From the NCBI RefSeq assembly GCF_031085175.1, contig NZ_JAVHUY010000042.1, positions 1 through 64,000 on the forward strand: a stretch of DNA of 64,000 bases. Direction: 5' to 3'. The stretch is from Phytohabitans maris. Lineage in GTDB: Bacteria; Actinomycetota; Actinomycetes; Mycobacteriales; Micromonosporaceae. This document shows, piece by piece, positions 9,200 to 59,444 of the stretch. How positions within the stretch are numbered: the stretch's first letter is position 1; every line of letters begins with the position of its first letter. The notes beneath the pieces are model-generated. The model ran no database searches, was not told the DNA's origin, and was given only the letters and a program-made list of their open reading frames with translations. A program made the translations under genes and the position numbers.

Positions 9200-9943
9200 G
9201 TGGTCACCGCCCTCGCCGCCGCGTTGACGGCGGTCGTGGTCACCCAGGCCAGCCCCGCGTCGGCGCACGGCTCCGTCACCGACCCGCCCTCGCGCAACTA
9301 CGGCTGCTGGGAGCGGTGGGGCGACGACCACCTCAACCCCAACATGGCGCAGACCGACCCGATGTGCGCCCAGGCCTGGCAGGCCAACCCCAACACGATG
9401 TGGAACTGGAACGGGCTGTACCAGGCCCAGGTGGACGCGGGCAGCCGCACCGGCCGGCACGTCGTGTACACGATCTGGCAGGCGAGCCACCTCGACCAGC
9501 CGTACTACCTGTGCAGTGACGTGATCTTCGGCGGCGGCACCAACCCGACCACGCCGCCGGTGACGACGCCACCGGTGACCACCCCGCCGGTGACCACGCC
9601 TCCGGCCACCACCCCGCCGGTGACCACGCCCCCGCCGGGCAACGGCGCCTGCACCGCGACGTACACGAAGACCAGCGAGTGGGGCGGCGGCTTCAACGCC
9701 AGCGTCACGGTCCGCGCCGGCAACGCCGCCATCTCCGGGTGGACGGTGAGCTGGACCTGGCCCAACGGCCAGAGCATCACCAGTTCCTGGAACGCGACGA
9801 TAACCGCGAGCGGGTCGTCGATCACCGCCACGAACGCCGCGTACAACGGCGCGCTGGCGGCCAACGCCTCGACCAGCTTCGGCTTCACCGGCAGCTGGAA
9901 CGGCACGAACACCGCACCGACCCTGAGCTGTACGGCCAGATAG
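9200..9943 (+). CDS. Secreted AA10 LPMO-CBM2 with an apparently deleted catalytic core
   Basis: 247 residues. The signal peptide ends SPASA, exposing His1 of HGSVTDPPSRNYGCWERWG, the N-terminal copper-ligand end of a cellulose-type AA10 lytic polysaccharide monooxygenase. The mature catalytic part to LCSDVIF is only about 88 residues, whereas AA10 domains are about 165-200. The N-terminal third (to WNWNGLYQ) runs directly into the C-terminal third (SRTGRHVVYTIWQASHLDQ), so the middle, which should carry the second histidine-brace His, is missing. A TTPPV-repeat linker (9540-9640) and a C-terminal CBM2 (about 150-247) are intact. GTG 9200 is the first start compatible with the signal peptide; its Shine-Dalgarno is weak. 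Probably inactive as an LPMO, possibly still cellulose-binding. Confidence 0.78.
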   Translation: MVTALAAALTAVVVTQASPASAHGSVTDPPSRNYGCWERWGDDHLNPNMAQTDPMCAQAWQANPNTMWNWNGLYQAQVDAGSRTGRHVVYTIWQASHLDQPYYLCSDVIFGGGTNPTTPPVTTPPVTTPPVTTPPATTPPVTTPPPGNGACTATYTKTSEWGGGFNASVTVRAGNAAISGWTVSWTWPNGQSITSSWNATITASGSSITATNAAYNGALAANASTSFGFTGSWNGTNTAPTLSCTAR

Positions 9944-54491: not shown

Positions 54492-55232
54492 TCAGACGAT
54501 GCCGCCGTTGGCGCGGAGGACCTGGCCGTTGACCCAGCGGGCGGCCGGGCCGGCCAGAAACGCGACGATCTCGGCGATGTCCTCGGGCGTACCGAGCCGT
54601 TGCAGCGGCGGGCGGGCGGCCAGGAGCGCGATGGTCTCCTCGTCCTTGCCGTCGAAGAACAGGTCGGTGGCGGTGGGTCCGGGCGCGACCGCGTTCACGG
54701 TGACGTCCCGGCCGCGCAGCTCGCGGGCGAGGATCAGCGTGATCGCCTCGACCGCCGCCTTGCTGGCCGTGTAGGCGCCGAGCCCTTCCGGGGCAAGCCC
54801 CACGTCCGAGGAGGAGAAGTTGACGATCGCGCCGCCGGGGCGTACCCGCCGCGCGGCCTGCTGGTTGACCACGAACGTGCCGCGGATGTTGACCCGGTGC
54901 AGTTCGTCCAGTTCGGACAGATCCAGCTCGGCGATCGACCCCGTACCGGTCCGGGCGGCCGCGTGCACCACCACGTCCACGCCGCCGAACTCCCGTTCCG
55001 CGCGGTCGAACAGAGCCGCCACGGCGGTCTCGTCGGCGACGTCGGCCCGTACCGCGATGGCCCTGCGGCCGGCCTCGACGATCTCCTTGACGGTCACCGC
55101 GGCCTGGTCCGCGTCGGTGGCGTAGCCCACGACGACGGCGAAGCCTTCGGCGGCGAGCCAGCGCACGACCTGCCGCCCGATGCCGCGGGAGCCGCCGGTG
55201 ACGACGGCAACCCGCGGATCAGCAACGTTCAT
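54492..55232 (-). CDS. Short-chain dehydrogenase/reductase at the end of the LPMO-DUF305 unit
   Basis: 246 residues. VAVVTGGSRGIGRQVVRWLA, VVVHAAARTGTG, IVNFSSSDVG, YTASKAAVEAITLILARELRG and PGPTATDLFFDGK, end WVNGQVLRANGGIV. This is the FabG/glucose-dehydrogenase-like NADP type. The ATG overlaps the stop of a 24-codon mini-cistron that links it to the DUF305 gene, so it may be translated with that unit. Substrate unknown. Confidence 0.88.
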   Translation of the reverse strand: MNVADPRVAVVTGGSRGIGRQVVRWLAAEGFAVVVGYATDADQAAVTVKEIVEAGRRAIAVRADVADETAVAALFDRAEREFGGVDVVVHAAARTGTGSIAELDLSELDELHRVNIRGTFVVNQQAARRVRPGGAIVNFSSSDVGLAPEGLGAYTASKAAVEAITLILARELRGRDVTVNAVAPGPTATDLFFDGKDEETIALLAARPPLQRLGTPEDIAEIVAFLAGPAARWVNGQVLRANGGIV

Positions 55233-55303
55233 GCCCGTCCTCGCTTCGCCGCGGGCGGGCATGAGGCGCCAAGCGCGCTGTGCGCGATGATTCGCTCGCT
55301 CAT
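55229..55303 (-). CDS. Mini-cistron bridging DUF305 and SDR genes
   Basis: 24 codons beginning MSERIIAH and ending PPAAKRGRA. It starts 2 bp after the DUF305 TAG and its TGA overlaps the SDR ATG (ATGA). It is the same kind of element as 20065-20148, sharing both peptide ends and the DNA string GCGAAGCGAGGACGG. Two copies in unrelated operons, both between genes and both in frame, argue for a repeat family with a translational role. Confidence 0.55.
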   Translation of the reverse strand: MSERIIAHSALGASCPPAAKRGRA

Positions 55304-55305
55304 GG

Positions 55306-55899
55306 CTAGCCTCCGATCAGGCGGAGCATCTGAGCCACCTGGTCGGCGCGGGACTCCTTGATCCGCTTGGCCAGGTCCTTCGTCTGCGGGTTCACCCCGT
55401 CGGCGGCGAGGTTGGTCAGCTCGACCGCGCTGTTCTGGTGGCCGGTCAGGAGGTTGAGGAAGGTGGCCTCGAAGTCCGCGTCGGAGGCGTTCCGGAGGGC
55501 CTCGATCTGCTCCGGGCCGGTGGCCGGAAGGCCGCCGTGGCTGGCGTGCGCGGACATGTCCTGGCTCGCCTCGGTGGCCTCCTTCCAACCGGTCAGCCAC
55601 GACTGCATGATCTTGACTTCCTCCCGCTGGGTGGTGTCGATCGCGGCGGCGAGGAGGCGGACCTCCTCGCTCACCGTGCGGTCGGCGGCGAGGCCGGTCA
55701 GCTCCAGCCCCTGCCCGTCGTGGGCGACCATCATCTGCAGGAACATCACGTCCGCCGCGTTGTGCTCCGCGTCGGCGGCCGGGAGGGTGTCGGCCGCCTG
55801 AGCGGCGTCGGCCGGCGCGGCGGGCGGCGGCGACGGCTCCGTCGAGCAGCCGGTCGCGAGCAGGAGCGCGGTGGCGGCGGCGAAGAGGACGCGTCGCAT
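55306..55899 (-). CDS. DUF305 lipoprotein, possible copper carrier
   Basis: 197 residues. Lipobox LLLATGC puts it on the outer membrane face. Two DUF305 repeats: HNAADVMFLQMMVAHDGQGLEL and NLLTGHQNSAVELTNLA, plus a Met/His segment DMSAHASHGG. Family members include the CopM copper-binding protein; His/Met pairs here fit Cu(I)/Cu(II) binding, although the usual HH pairs are reduced to single His. The gene follows the LPMO gene with a single base between stop and start. A link to copper loading of the LPMO is attractive but unproven. Confidence 0.85.
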   Translation of the reverse strand: MRRVLFAAATALLLATGCSTEPSPPPAAPADAAQAADTLPAADAEHNAADVMFLQMMVAHDGQGLELTGLAADRTVSEEVRLLAAAIDTTQREEVKIMQSWLTGWKEATEASQDMSAHASHGGLPATGPEQIEALRNASDADFEATFLNLLTGHQNSAVELTNLAADGVNPQTKDLAKRIKESRADQVAQMLRLIGG

Positions 55900-55900
55900 C

Positions 55901-56662
55901 TCAGACCGGCAGCCAGAGGGCGAGCGTGAAGATCGACGGCTCCCAGCCGGAGAGCGAGGTGTGCGCCTGGCGGCAGCGGTACCGCTTGCCCTGGAACGTG
56001 ACCTCGTCCCCGATCTTGTACGAGGTGCCGGTCGCCCAGGTACCGCCCGCGTTCCCGGCCGGCGGCGGGGTGGTCGCCGGGGGGCGGGTGGTCGGCGCCG
56101 TGGACGGGGGAGCGGTGGTGGCCGGGGGCGGGTCCTGCGGGGTACCGCCGCCGCCCACGTTGAGGTCGATGCAGCTGTAGAAGGCGTTCGCGGTGTCGCC
56201 GATGTTCCAGATGGCCAGCACCGTGCGGCGGCCGGGGAAGCGGGAGAGGTCGACCTGGTGCGACACGACCGCGTCCGGCTGCTGGTTGCCGCCGTCGACC
56301 ACCGCCACGCGGGTGCCGCCGACGAAGTACTCCCAGTTCGCGGTGCGGTGGCGGGCGGTGAAGACCCACGTGAACGTCACCGACGAGCCGACCGCGCGGG
56401 CCGGCCAGTTGCGGCTTTCGTCGTTGAGCACGGCGAACTGGGACAGGCCGCCGTCGCAGCTGCGCAGCCCCTTCGGGCCCTCCACGCTCTGCGGCTCGAA
56501 CTGGATCTGTCCACAGTCGGCGACGGCGCGTGACGCGCAGAGCGCCTGGCGGCTGGGTGGGGCGGAGACGTACCCGTGGGCGGAGGCGGCGGTACCGGTC
56601 GCGACCAGGCCCGCGGCGGCGGTGCCGGCGATTACCAGGGGATATACGAGAACCTTACGCAT
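55901..56662 (-). CDS. Secreted chitin-type AA10 LPMO with CBM5/12
   Basis: 253 residues; signal peptide ending GTAASA before His1 of HGYVSAPPSRQALCAS. The histidine brace is completed by the His of the conserved WVFTARHRTANWEYF-like segment (TFTWVFTARHRT). Full-length AA10 domain (about 28-175, ending AFYSCIDLNV), a Pro/Thr linker, and a C-terminal CBM5/12 (WATGTSYKIGDEVTFQGKRYRCRQAH split here: WATGTSYKIGDEV, YRCRQAHTSLSGWEP). This resembles ChbB/CbpD-type chitin-active LPMOs that cleave crystalline chitin oxidatively. Upstream are three 11-bp direct repeats, suggesting control by the adjacent two-component system; DUF305 follows at +1 bp. Confidence 0.92.
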   Translation of the reverse strand: MRKVLVYPLVIAGTAAAGLVATGTAASAHGYVSAPPSRQALCASRAVADCGQIQFEPQSVEGPKGLRSCDGGLSQFAVLNDESRNWPARAVGSSVTFTWVFTARHRTANWEYFVGGTRVAVVDGGNQQPDAVVSHQVDLSRFPGRRTVLAIWNIGDTANAFYSCIDLNVGGGGTPQDPPPATTAPPSTAPTTRPPATTPPPAGNAGGTWATGTSYKIGDEVTFQGKRYRCRQAHTSLSGWEPSIFTLALWLPV

Positions 56663-56682
56663 GCCCAGGGACGCTACGAACC

Positions 56683-56715
56683 GTGACCATAAACAGACCT
56701 TAAACGTCAAATAAA
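56683..56715 (-). promoter_or_regulatory. Three contiguous 11-bp direct repeats (OmpR/PhoP-type box) before the LPMO
   Basis: Plus-strand units: GTGACCATAAA (56683-56693), CAGACCTTAAA (56694-56704), CGTCAAATAAA (56705-56715). All end in TAAA, and the first two share GACCWTAAA. On the coding strand they read TTTATGGTCAC, TTTAAGGTCTG and TTTATTTGACG. Contiguous 11-bp units are the footprint of OmpR-family regulators, one of which is encoded two genes upstream. The array starts 21 bp before the LPMO ATG, in place of a normal -10/-35. Confidence 0.65.
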
Positions 56716-56753
56716 TCCAGCCGTGGAGTCGAGCGTCAGGAGAGGTCCACAGG

Positions 56754-58028
56754 TCATGGGGGAGCGGTCGGGAGGAGCAGGGCGACCCGCGCGCCGCCGA
56801 GGCGGCCGCGGCCGATGTCCAGGCGGCCGCCCATCGAGTGGGCGATGCGTTGCGCGATGTCCAGGCCCAGGCCCGTGGAGCCGCTGCCGCTCACGCCGCG
56901 CCGCACCGCCGTGGCCGGATCGGGGATGCCGGGGCCGGCGTCGTCCACCACCAGCCCCTCGGGGGAGACGCCGACCAGGAACGCGGTCCCTTCCGGAGTG
57001 TGCGCGAACACGTTGCCCAGCAACGCGTCGATCGCCAGGATCAGCTCGCCGCGGGGGAGCGGCACCGGCACCGGATGGTCGCCACCGACCACTGTGGTCG
57101 GTCGTCCCTGGTCCTCGGCGAGTACCGACCAGAATGCCAGCCGGTCGGCCAGCACCTCGACCAGGTCGGTGGAGTGGCTGGCCCGGGTACCCGAGCTGAG
57201 CCGCGCGCCGGTGATGATGGCCTCCAGCTCGTCGTCGAGCAGGTCGAACGCCTGCGCCATCCGGTCCGCCACCGGCCCGCGCGGCAGCGCCTCGGCGTCC
57301 AGGCGGAGCGCGGTCAGCGGGGTACGCAGCCGGTGCGAGAGGTCGGCGGCGAGCTCGCGTTCGTTGTCGATGAGCTGGCGCATGTTGTCGGCCATCGTGT
57401 TGAACGAGCGGGCCGCGTCGGTCAGCTCCGGCGGCCCGGCCGGCTCCACCCGTACGCTGAGGTCGCCGCCGCCGAGCCGGCGCGCACCGGCCGCCAGCTC
57501 GCGGGTGGCCCGTACCAGGCGGGCGCCGAGCCGGTCGGCGACAAGCGTGGAGCCCGCCACCAGCACGACGGCGAGCCCGGCCAGCGCCAGCCAGGCTGGC
57601 CAGACGCCGCGCTGGATCTGCTCGTCGGGCACGAACACCTCGATCACCGCCGTCCTCCCTCCATCGAGGACACTCGGCTGGAGGTAGGCCAGGCCACCGT
57701 CGTACTCCACGATGGACGGCCGCCGGGAACGCGAGGCCGCGGCGACGTCGGAGGCCGCGGCGCGCGGCGATCCGATCGCACCGAGGTCCGGCAGGTGTAC
57801 CGCGAGCCGCCCGTCGCTGCCCGCGGCGGTGCTCGCCACCGCCTGGTCGAGCAGGGCCGGATCGGTGTCGACGGCGAGCGCGACCACGATCGCGGTGGCC
57901 TGCTGCCGCGCGTCGCCGACCGCCCGGTCGTGCGCGATCTGCCGGGTCAGGATGGCGAGCGGCACCAGGAACGCCAGCGCCACCATCGACGTGATGGCCA
58001 GCGCGAGCCGGGTGAGGGTGAGCCTCAT
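56754..58028 (-). CDS. Sensor histidine kinase
   Basis: 424 residues. TM1 about 7-29, extracellular domain of about 130 residues, TM2 about 160-182 (WPAWLALAGLAVVLVAGSTLV), HAMP, HisKA with phosphoacceptor ADLSHRLRTPLTALRLDAE, and HATPase with N box DALLGNVFAHT and G boxes VVDDAGPGIPD and GSGSTGLGLDIAQRIAHSMGG. The start ATG overlaps the response-regulator stop (ATGA). Signal unknown; the downstream LPMO and its direct repeats suggest chitin or copper response (inference). Confidence 0.93.
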   Translation of the reverse strand: MRLTLTRLALAITSMVALAFLVPLAILTRQIAHDRAVGDARQQATAIVVALAVDTDPALLDQAVASTAAGSDGRLAVHLPDLGAIGSPRAAASDVAAASRSRRPSIVEYDGGLAYLQPSVLDGGRTAVIEVFVPDEQIQRGVWPAWLALAGLAVVLVAGSTLVADRLGARLVRATRELAAGARRLGGGDLSVRVEPAGPPELTDAARSFNTMADNMRQLIDNERELAADLSHRLRTPLTALRLDAEALPRGPVADRMAQAFDLLDDELEAIITGARLSSGTRASHSTDLVEVLADRLAFWSVLAEDQGRPTTVVGGDHPVPVPLPRGELILAIDALLGNVFAHTPEGTAFLVGVSPEGLVVDDAGPGIPDPATAVRRGVSGSGSTGLGLDIAQRIAHSMGGRLDIGRGRLGGARVALLLPTAPP

Positions 58029-58708
58029 TCGGGCTCCACCAGCTTTACGCCGACGCCCCGCACCGTGTGCAGGTACCGGGGCCGGGCGGCCGTCTCGCCG
58101 AGCTTGCGGCGCAGCCACGAGATGTGTACGTCGATGGTCTGCTCCTCGCCGATCCGGTCCTGCTGCCACACCTGGCGCAGCAGCTCCCGCCGGCTGACCA
58201 CCCGGCCGACCCGCCCGGCCAGGTACGCGAGCACGTCGAACTCCCGCCGGGTGAGCCGGATCGGCGCCCCGTCCAGCCGCACCTCCCGTCGCTGCGGGTC
58301 GATGACCAGCGAACCCACGGTGATGCTCGGCGTCTCCTCCGGCACCGGCCGCCCGCGCCGCTGCACCGCCGCGATCCGGGCCAGCAGGTGGCCGCTGGAG
58401 AACGGTTTGGTCACGTAGTCGTCGGCGCCCGCGTTGAGCAGGTTGATGATGTCCACCTCGGAGCGGCGGGCGGTGGCCACGATCACCGGTACGTCCGAGA
58501 CGCTCCGCATCATCCGCAGCGCGTCGGCGCCGTCGATGTCCGGCAGCCCCAGGTCGAGGATCACCAGGTCGGGCCGGTCGTCGGCGACGATGCGCAGGGC
58601 GTCTACCGCCTGCGCCGCACCGCGTACGACGTGACCGGCGTCGACCAGCGCGCGGGTGAGCGCCGCCGAGACGATGCGGTCGTCTTCGACCAGCAGGATC
58701 ATCGCCAT
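58025..58708 (-). CDS. OmpR-family response regulator
   Basis: 227 residues. Receiver domain with acidic pair LVEDDRIV, phosphoacceptor Asp in LVILDLGLPDIDG, Thr in VATARR and Lys in YVTKPFSSGHL; C-terminal winged helix VRLDGAPIRLTRREFDVLAYLA, VHISWLRRKLGE, YLHTVRGVGVKLV. First gene of the minus-strand unit. Start at ATG 58708; an ATG at 58720 is possible. Likely binds 11-bp direct repeats such as those at 56683-56715. Confidence 0.94.
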   Translation of the reverse strand: MAMILLVEDDRIVSAALTRALVDAGHVVRGAAQAVDALRIVADDRPDLVILDLGLPDIDGADALRMMRSVSDVPVIVATARRSEVDIINLLNAGADDYVTKPFSSGHLLARIAAVQRRGRPVPEETPSITVGSLVIDPQRREVRLDGAPIRLTRREFDVLAYLAGRVGRVVSRRELLRQVWQQDRIGEEQTIDVHISWLRRKLGETAARPRYLHTVRGVGVKLVEPE

Positions 58709-58761
58709 GCGGTTCACCATATGGGCTCGGCGCGCTTCGCTCGCCGGCGGCGGGCGAGGCG

Positions 58762-58884
58762 CGCTGCTTACGGGCGGCGTCCCAGACGCGCCGCTCGCCG
58801 GCGACGGGCGCCAGGTGGCACCCCGCTGCTTACCGGCGGCGTCCGAGACGGGCCGCTCGCCGGCGGCGGGCGCCGGGTGGCACC
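58762..58884. repeat. Two 61-bp tandem repeats in a divergent promoter region
   Basis: Units 58762-58822 and 58824-58884 (CGCTGCTTACGGGCGGCGTC... and CGCTGCTTACCGGCGGCGTC...) differ at about 6 positions and end GGTGGCACC. Each contains CGCTCGCCGGCG inverted parts. They fill most of the gap between the response regulator and the divergent secreted-protein gene. Confidence 0.75.
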
Positions 58885-58898
58885 GGGTCGGTGGTTCA

Positions 58899-59444
58899 AT
58901 GGCCGGCATGCGGCTGCGCGGTTGGGTCCCGGTGCTCGGATGGTGCGCGGCCACCCTCGCCAGCATCGGGGTGGCGACGGTGGCGCTCCAGCCGGTGCTG
59001 CGCACGGCCACACCCGACCTGGCCTCGGCGCCGCTGGACCGCGCGGCCGCCGCCCCGCCCGCCGTCACGACGCCATCCGCGGTGTCCCCGCCGGCTTCGC
59101 CCTCGCCGTCCCCTTCGCCGTCACCCTCCAGGTCGCGGCCGTCGCCGTCCCCCACGCCCACCCCCGCGACGGTCGTCGACGGGTGGACGGTGACGACCGG
59201 TGACGACGGGCAGACGACGTACACGCGCTCGTTCCGCGTCGGCGGTGGCCAGGCGGTGATCCGCATGACGCCCGGCCGCGTCCAGCTGGTCACCGCCACG
59301 CCCAACCCCGGCTTCACGGTCGACACCGTGCAGAACGAGCCGGGCAACCTGGCGATCCAGTTCACCGAGCCCAACCACTACTTCGTCATCCACGCGGTCT
59401 GGCAGGGCAAACCGGTGGCCCAGGTCAGTGAGGTCGGTGGCTGA
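58899..59444 (+). CDS. Secreted or anchored Pro/Ser-rich small protein
   Basis: 181 residues (178 from ATG 58908). N-terminal hydrophobic segment WVPVLGWCAATLASIGVATVAL, then a Pro/Ser repeat stalk (SPSPSPSPSPS region near 68-88), then a compact beta-rich domain of about 85 residues (VVDGWTVTTGDDGQTTYTRSF, VRFT-like LAIQFTEPNHYFVIHAVWQG). I do not recognise the domain. Genes like this often sit divergent from response-regulator/kinase pairs and may be their target. The 3' end is partly duplicated downstream (59461-59497). Confidence 0.7.
   Translation: MAGMRLRGWVPVLGWCAATLASIGVATVALQPVLRTATPDLASAPLDRAAAAPPAVTTPSAVSPPASPSPSPSPSPSRSRPSPSPTPTPATVVDGWTVTTGDDGQTTYTRSFRVGGGQAVIRMTPGRVQLVTATPNPGFTVDTVQNEPGNLAIQFTEPNHYFVIHAVWQGKPVAQVSEVGG

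Follow-up and report, generated by a model that had tools for sequence, protein, structure and literature searches.

An LPMO gene and the gene of a predicted DUF305 lipoprotein form a recurrent pair in actinobacteria: a possible partnership in copper handling

Results

Organization of the locus

The window (the whole stretch of 64,000 nucleotides of Phytohabitans maris DNA that was analysed) carries on its minus strand a cassette made up of a two-component system, an AA10 LPMO gene and a DUF305 gene. The genes and features on which this work is based are the following:

58025-58708, minus strand: response regulator of the OmpR family (Response_reg and Trans_reg_C; Pfam), first gene of the cassette
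56754-58028, minus strand: sensor histidine kinase (HAMP, HisKA, HATPase_c; Pfam), whose start overlaps the 3' end of the regulator gene
56687-56703, minus strand: direct repeat TTAAGG-N5-TTATGG with an 11-bp period, candidate operator of the LPMO-DUF305 unit as read from the sequence
55901-56662, minus strand: AA10 LPMO with a compact catalytic domain and a C-terminal CBM5/12 (Pfam, 5AA7 alignment)
56162-56578, minus strand: LPMO_10 catalytic domain, residues 29-167 (Pfam)
55913-56041, minus strand: CBM5/12 module, residues 208-250 (Pfam)
55306-55899, minus strand: predicted DUF305 lipoprotein of the LPMO-linked branch (Pfam, alignments, tree, model)
55846-55848, minus strand: lipobox cysteine Cys18, LATGC in the window protein (branch alignment)
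55525-55548, minus strand: branch signature H118-A-S-H121-G-G-L-P125 (branch alignment)
55435-55440, minus strand: H154-Q155, replacing the second HH of canonical DUF305 (branch alignment)

The LPMO gene ends with a TGA at 55903-55901, which is followed by a single G at 55900 and by the DUF305 ATG at 55899-55897 (minus strand). An earlier note on this DNA had given a distance of one base from the LPMO stop codon to the DUF305 start codon, and the minus-strand ORF coordinates bear this out. The same note had called the two genes fused in translation; they are in fact two separate ORFs in different frames, and what can be kept of that description is a probable coupling. The DUF305 ORF encodes 197 aa and terminates at 55306, and the next minus-strand gene after it encodes a short-chain dehydrogenase. 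The start codons of the regulator and kinase genes were chosen by us. A scan of 55100-59000 for sigma-70 promoters and terminators gave no match.

The LPMO scored 79.5 bits with LPMO_10 (Pfam cut-off 23), which makes it an AA10 protein, and 58.2 bits with CBM_5_12 (cut-off 26.2). Its N-terminus resembles a signal peptide, which is predicted to end before His29, the residue at which LPMO_10 begins. In the alignment His29 takes the position of the first residue of 5AA7, and the second histidine of the brace, in taRHrt, aligned with that of taPHnt in the same chain. By sequence, 5AA7 was the nearest solved structure (E 1.4e-42); it was deposited under the name CHITINASE and we take it to be the chitin-active JdLPMO10A. 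The classification as a chitin-type AA10 LPMO made in the earlier note is consistent with this relationship, the activity being a prediction. A second LPMO_10 gene of the window (9266-9523, plus strand) matched only profile positions 1-51 and 151-183 within one open frame, and thus lacks some 100 catalytic-domain residues, probably including the second histidine of the brace.

Repeated pairing in the genome, its relatives and the class

The genome to which the window belongs contains seven DUF305 matches and eight LPMO_10 places (from nine matches, two of which are pieces of one gene), among which there were three LPMO-DUF305 neighbour pairs: that of the window (C37), another tandem pair (C56) and a divergent one (C6). 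Since random placement would give about 0.01 pair (an estimate that assumes about 9,000 genes), this pairing is more than chance. We extended the survey to 61 genomes (this one and 60 relatives), where the searches yielded 93 DUF305 hits at E <= 1e-12 and 52 compact-LPMO hits at E <= 1e-20. A DUF305 gene was located within 5 kb of 34 of the 45 compact LPMOs at E <= 1.1e-45, and of none of the seven weaker ones. The 34 paired LPMOs, which include one in genome G011 separated from its DUF305 by another LPMO, involve 33 different DUF305 genes. Twenty-nine of the pairs are in tandem with the LPMO first and five are divergent; the latter, all of them in the genus of the window, seem to represent a single orthologous group, which indicates that the link outlived an inversion. 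In our reading of the sequences, the three pairs of this genome match three groups kept across congeners. The remaining 11 of the 45 compact LPMOs had no DUF305 neighbour, and when the surroundings of eight of them (among these the only compact LPMO of the congener G001) were rechecked within 1.5 kb at E <= 1, no DUF305 was detected. One further DUF305 (G033:C28) lies beside an LPMO of a different subtype. The repeated pairs in this genome and its relatives rule out an adjacency due to chance or peculiar to one genome.

For the class, one genome per species was scanned with alignment A1 as query, the scan being keyed on a single peptide pattern (DVMFLQM), and the best 80 of 325 DUF305 relatives were kept. 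In 77 of these best 80 of 325 an LPMO gene was directly upstream on the same strand, a proportion that, given the single-pattern scan and the selection, describes the LPMO-linked branch and not all DUF305s. Two of the three misses are contig ends (L126 and L172) and the third (L156) is a real absence. The 77 loci belong to five actinobacterial families, namely Micromonosporaceae (52), Pseudonocardiaceae (12), Thermomonosporaceae (9), Streptosporangiaceae (3) and Nocardiaceae (1). Counting the adjacency across actinobacteria was the check suggested in the earlier note, and among these closest relatives it extends well beyond one genome, so that the refuting outcome which the note had named, an adjacency confined to this genome, did not arise. 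In four loci (L122, L153, L174 and L181; the first and third were checked with Pfam) the DUF305 partner is an LPMO of the larger type, so the partner may be of another subtype and the link is to LPMOs rather than to one gene.

Of the 75 pairs that could be measured, 40 have overlapping LPMO and DUF305 genes (usually by 4 or 16 bases), and the others were spaced within 50 (6 pairs), at 51-120 (26) or at 121-250 bases (3), with start codons chosen by script. With such spacing, the two genes may be translationally coupled. According to a crude gene caller, which recovered the two genes of the pair in only 70 and 62 of the 80 loci, the next gene cluster besides the pair reached at most 34 of 80 loci, and generic synteny was discarded on this basis as the cause of the pairing.

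Several other features of these loci were recorded. Tandem LPMO genes precede a single DUF305 gene in L132 (three) and L114 (two), and a PQQ_2 beta-propeller gene is directly downstream of DUF305 in 16 of 80 loci (for example L136, 5616-6756). A scan yielded no viral relatives. Saccharothrix yanglingensis Hhs.015 bears an LPMO-linked DUF305 (L170, 5070-5522), and the plant elicitor BAR11 from this strain is described as a DUF305 protein in PMC5900052. In open-access PMC literature we found no report of the LPMO-DUF305 pair; PMC5813959, a candidate for a paper dealing with both, was set aside because the term it contains is DUF3050.

LPMO types with a DUF305 partner

To characterize the partner enzymes, we compared 56 compact-LPMO rows drawn from L075-L100, L221-L247, L004 and L005 (L093 contributes two rows, and L004 and L005 had been retrieved via their DUF305), taking as single-domain those with no more than 14 residues between the AFYxC motif and the end of the ORF. 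A DUF305 gene was present within 1.5 kb of 24 of 39 modular LPMOs and of none of 17 single-domain compact ones (Fisher 6e-6 for 24, 15, 0 and 17, in rows that are not independent by descent). As the pairing in this set is limited to LPMOs with an extra C-terminal module, the partner goes with modular, probably chitin-targeted enzymes, and from the lack of pairing in all 17 single-domain compact LPMOs it follows that this type of enzyme has no need of DUF305.

A separate DUF305 branch

The window protein scored 115.5 bits with PF03713 (Pfam cut-off 27) and is thus a member of DUF305. The earlier note had considered it a lipoprotein, and a lipobox-like signal is indeed present, both by eye and by pattern (Cys18 after LATG), and each of the 92 branch members in the alignment has the equivalent cysteine; lipidation is predicted on these grounds. 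In a tree of 138 proteins (with L187/L002 and L153/L193 as duplicate rows), the LPMO-adjacent proteins among the tree rows listed were all on one side of a branch of length 0.62 with support 100/100, and 38 canonical DUF305s among those rows were on the opposite side. Five proteins without LPMO (L126, L156, L172, L197 and L007) were nevertheless placed on the LPMO side. Judged from their sequences, the LPMO-linked DUF305s are a branch of their own.

Among 30 loci listed from 296 genomes of the class, an LPMO was found in L190-L196 and was absent from L197, and no LPMO was detected within 1.5 kb of any of the 22 canonical DUF305 loci (L198-L219). Both L156 and L197 are branch members with readable flanks that have no LPMO. 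In turn, in L185 and L186 an LPMO ORF and a canonical DUF305 ORF are about 1.6 kb apart, and a canonical DUF305 lies about 2.0-2.3 kb from an LPMO (between matches) in six genomes, i.e. five congeners and G025. Canonical neighbours of the L185/L186 type were not scored as pairs and weigh against a clean split between the branches. In L185 (3410-5785), the canonical HH-type DUF305 gene is divergent from a 545-aa ORF, beyond which the LPMO is found.

In the branch alignment, H118 was conserved in 92 of 92 members and H121 in 91, and the set of H118, H121, H154, M52 and M56 was kept at 88-92 of 92 for each residue. D50 and E94 are also kept, and these are common to canonical members. Two positions set the branch apart: Q155 (90/92, versus H in 13/14 canonical proteins) and R184 (89/92, versus Q in 13/14). 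When 99 linked and 37 canonical proteins were compared (L007 and L187 excluded), two HHxxA motifs were present in 36 of the 37 canonical proteins and in none of the 99 linked ones, and the mean number of methionines was 7.3 in linked versus 12.6 in canonical proteins. Total histidine did not rise in the linked set (mean 5.75 versus 6.16), and HxxHG[GA], present in 97 of 99 linked proteins, was not exclusive to them, since 7 of 37 canonical ones have it too. The canonical HH motifs read HD and HQ in the window protein. These patterns suggest that the LPMO-linked branch has swapped the CopM-type HH and methionine sites for a fixed histidine set, HxxHGG plus GHQ.

Relationship to CopM and predicted fold

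With the NCBIfam CopM model (NF049983, cut-off 90), the window protein scored 40.9 bits and three linked relatives 41.8, 56.9 and 46.2, all below the cut-off, whereas three canonical proteins were above it (97.5, 104 and 101.7). According to PMC4335983, both DUF305 parts of CopM carry a conserved HH motif, in place of which the window protein has HD and HQ. Plain CopM membership was excluded by the cut-off and by the loss of these motifs. An AlphaFold2 model of the window protein built from 81 sequences reached a pLDDT of 91.6, its weak part being the HxxHGG loop with H118 and H121 (pLDDT near 55). Foldseek and VIA-align put the model among DUF305 structures, together with the apo, Cu(I), Cu(II) and Ag forms of CopM. 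Other DUF305s ranked highest (Z 19.7-20.3), CopM entries had Z 18.1-18.8 and rmsd 1.6-2.3 (Z 18.7-18.8 for the Cu(I) and Cu(II) forms), and the next family, Dps, had 16.4. The modelled protein thus has the helical fold of CopM, but a common fold, here a predicted one, does not equal a common function. The His/Met pairs that the earlier note regarded as suitable for copper are precisely the degraded ones (HH to HD and HQ). With the cut-off missed and the HH motifs gone, the existence of CopM within DUF305, to which the note appealed, does not by itself make the window protein a copper binder.

Two-component system and direct repeat

A related kinase and regulator were directly upstream of the pair in 33 of the 77 loci as well as in the window, and a related system was downstream of the pair in four Actinomadura loci. 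Near the other two pairs of the genome, no match to the upstream type of system was found within 7-kb stretches. A histidine in the sensor part of the kinase (H78) was invariant in 34 of 34 sequences. Just before the LPMO start, TTAAGG-N5-TTA[TGC]G was present in 32 of 34 cases (the 33 loci and the window), a descriptive count, as the motif was derived from the same sequences; the exceptions were L116, without the motif, and L125, which reads N. In these sequences, which amount to 811 kb when both strands are counted, there were 33 copies, 32 of them at an LPMO start, and the window contains a single one. The repeat was also found in 7 of the 44 LPMO loci without an upstream system, all of them from Actinomadura, and these give it more independent support. 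Over the whole genome, the exact form TTAAGG-N5-TTANGG occurred in two places, including that of the window; with up to one mismatch the pattern occurred in 7 places versus 8 for a reversed control and is thus not enriched. The second exact operator-like site (G000:C28:1471-1487, TTAAGGATCTCTTAAGG) is near an ORF that we read as ECF-sigma-like. Another candidate, GTTTA-N6-GTTTA, was rejected as a common repeat: among two-component loci it was confined to the window and two Phytohabitans loci, and a looser form matched 6 other loci. A direct repeat with an 11-bp period is compatible with a regulator of the OmpR type, and the one described here is a possible operator of the response regulator at the LPMO-DUF305 unit, as far as sequence can indicate.

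Discussion

The LPMO and its DUF305 neighbour almost certainly form a functional partnership. A copper setting of DUF305 elsewhere, together with a constant copper-enzyme neighbour, points to copper as the likely business of the pair, and we consider copper handling of some kind by the DUF305 partner probable. We infer that this protein is tethered to the membrane and serves the LPMO as its own copper partner, with loading as the most likely function and guarding as a possible one. Delivery of copper to the apo-LPMO as its main job is the reading that we favour, at a probability of about 0.45. A dedicated LPMO copper donor was the idea of the earlier note, which the present results support in part while correcting its chemistry. 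In this scheme, of which copper binding, delivery, lipidation, translational coupling and regulation of the pair are inferred elements, the chitin-targeted LPMO would pass the outer face of the membrane once exported. There, the lipid-anchored four-helix DUF305 protein would hold copper in a re-made putative site (the HxxHGG loop plus GHQ) and hand it to the N-terminal His brace before the enzyme diffuses away towards chitin. In part of the family, including the window, the adjacent two-component system would turn the pair on through the direct-repeat operator. No SCO1/SenC match was found in the genome (G000) at E <= 0.001, which leaves room for another copper donor, though one PCuAC match is present. 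LPMOs acquire copper unaided in the test tube, and this counts against the need for a donor.

The strongest rival to delivery is a copper guard, that is, a lipoprotein that would catch copper from a damaged LPMO or cap its reduced copper site against oxidative self-damage. There is a precedent in cis, since the copper-binding CBM2 of actinobacterial cellulose-active LPMOs has such a guarding role (PMC12703677), and a guard would agree both with the restriction of the pairing to modular LPMOs (24/39 modular, 0/17 single-domain) and with a membrane anchor that would shield the cell. However, an LPMO that departs to chitin leaves any membrane-bound protein behind, and the linked DUF305s are poorer in methionine, which commonly serves as Cu(I) ligand. 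For a lipoprotein located where the enzyme is exported, and then left by it, loading is a better match than guarding, and we regard the guard as unlikely. The systematic loss of HH and Met with no rise in total His could also mean that the fold has lost copper binding altogether and that a metal-free partner acts on the LPMO while it is being exported, by holding, folding or inhibiting it, R184 (89/92, canonical Q 13/14) then marking a new surface. This we find improbable, because the conserved H118, H121, H154, M52 and M56 are more readily explained by a metal or active site than by a simple docking face.

It is much harder to sustain that the lipoprotein signals the state of copper or of the LPMO to the adjacent histidine kinase. 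The upstream system of 33/77 loci and the window, its conserved direct repeat and the invariant H78 in the sensor part of the kinase (34/34) would accord with such an input, but the system is absent from 44/77 loci and had no match in the 7-kb stretches near the other two pairs of the genome. Finally, that the genes are neighbours by descent only, with no joint function, is barely credible. Loci of related species are syntenic, and the compact LPMO of congener G001 has no adjoining DUF305; against this, three paralogous pairs were kept in the genus, one in inverted orientation, no other gene cluster went beyond 34/80 loci with the crude gene caller, and the pair spans five families.

To our knowledge, the Sco and PCuAC donors of Streptomyces have folds unrelated to DUF305 and no LPMO partner gene. 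Their likeness to the favoured delivery reading is in function, as they deliver copper to secreted copper enzymes, Sco supplying GlxA (PMC9040799); that paper calls the copper acquisition of LpmP, a Streptomyces LPMO, unknown. Among DUF305 proteins, CopM of Synechocystis (copMRS operon) shares domain, fold, export and a gene beside a two-component system, and is described in PMC4335983 as a periplasmic, Met-rich, Cu(I)-binding copper-resistance protein with HH motifs, encoded with its two-component system. Unlike CopM, the window protein is a predicted lipoprotein that has HD/HQ plus HxxHGG and adjoins an LPMO. In Myxococcus xanthus, the curA operon (CorSR, CuoA, CopA) joins the gene of a DUF305 lipoprotein to those of a two-component system, a PQQ_2 lipoprotein, a multicopper oxidase and CopA (PMC3707914), and the PQQ_2 gene downstream of the pair in 16/80 loci parallels that PQQ_2 lipoprotein. 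The operon differs in serving copper tolerance with a multicopper oxidase and a P-type ATPase, and no LPMO figures in the table consulted. As to the copper-binding CBM2, PMC12703677 also suggests copper delivery, so that it resembles the present case as an extra copper-handling part, guard and possible donor, tied to an actinobacterial AA10 LPMO. That module is fused in cis to cellulose-active enzymes, whereas here a separate helical lipoprotein goes with chitin-type LPMOs.

With a chance that we put somewhat short of even, the pair could represent the first dedicated LPMO copper-handling system, in which a DUF305 branch with a new His set would load or guard one LPMO at the membrane, partly under its own two-component system and a direct-repeat operator that is near-unique in this genome. 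If so, the DUF305 lipoprotein would be the in-trans counterpart of the copper-binding CBM2, and one branch of a domain of unknown function would be given a role. The pair, kept over five families, makes LPMO copper supply a two-protein experiment, and would offer biotechnology a co-expression partner for better copper-loaded LPMOs. Many soil actinobacteria have, next to the gene of a copper enzyme thought to attack chitin, that of a small, presumably membrane-anchored relative of a known copper-binding protein, through which the enzyme may obtain or retain its copper, and the sensor and candidate operator beside the pair would make it possible to ask which signal starts oxidative chitin attack.
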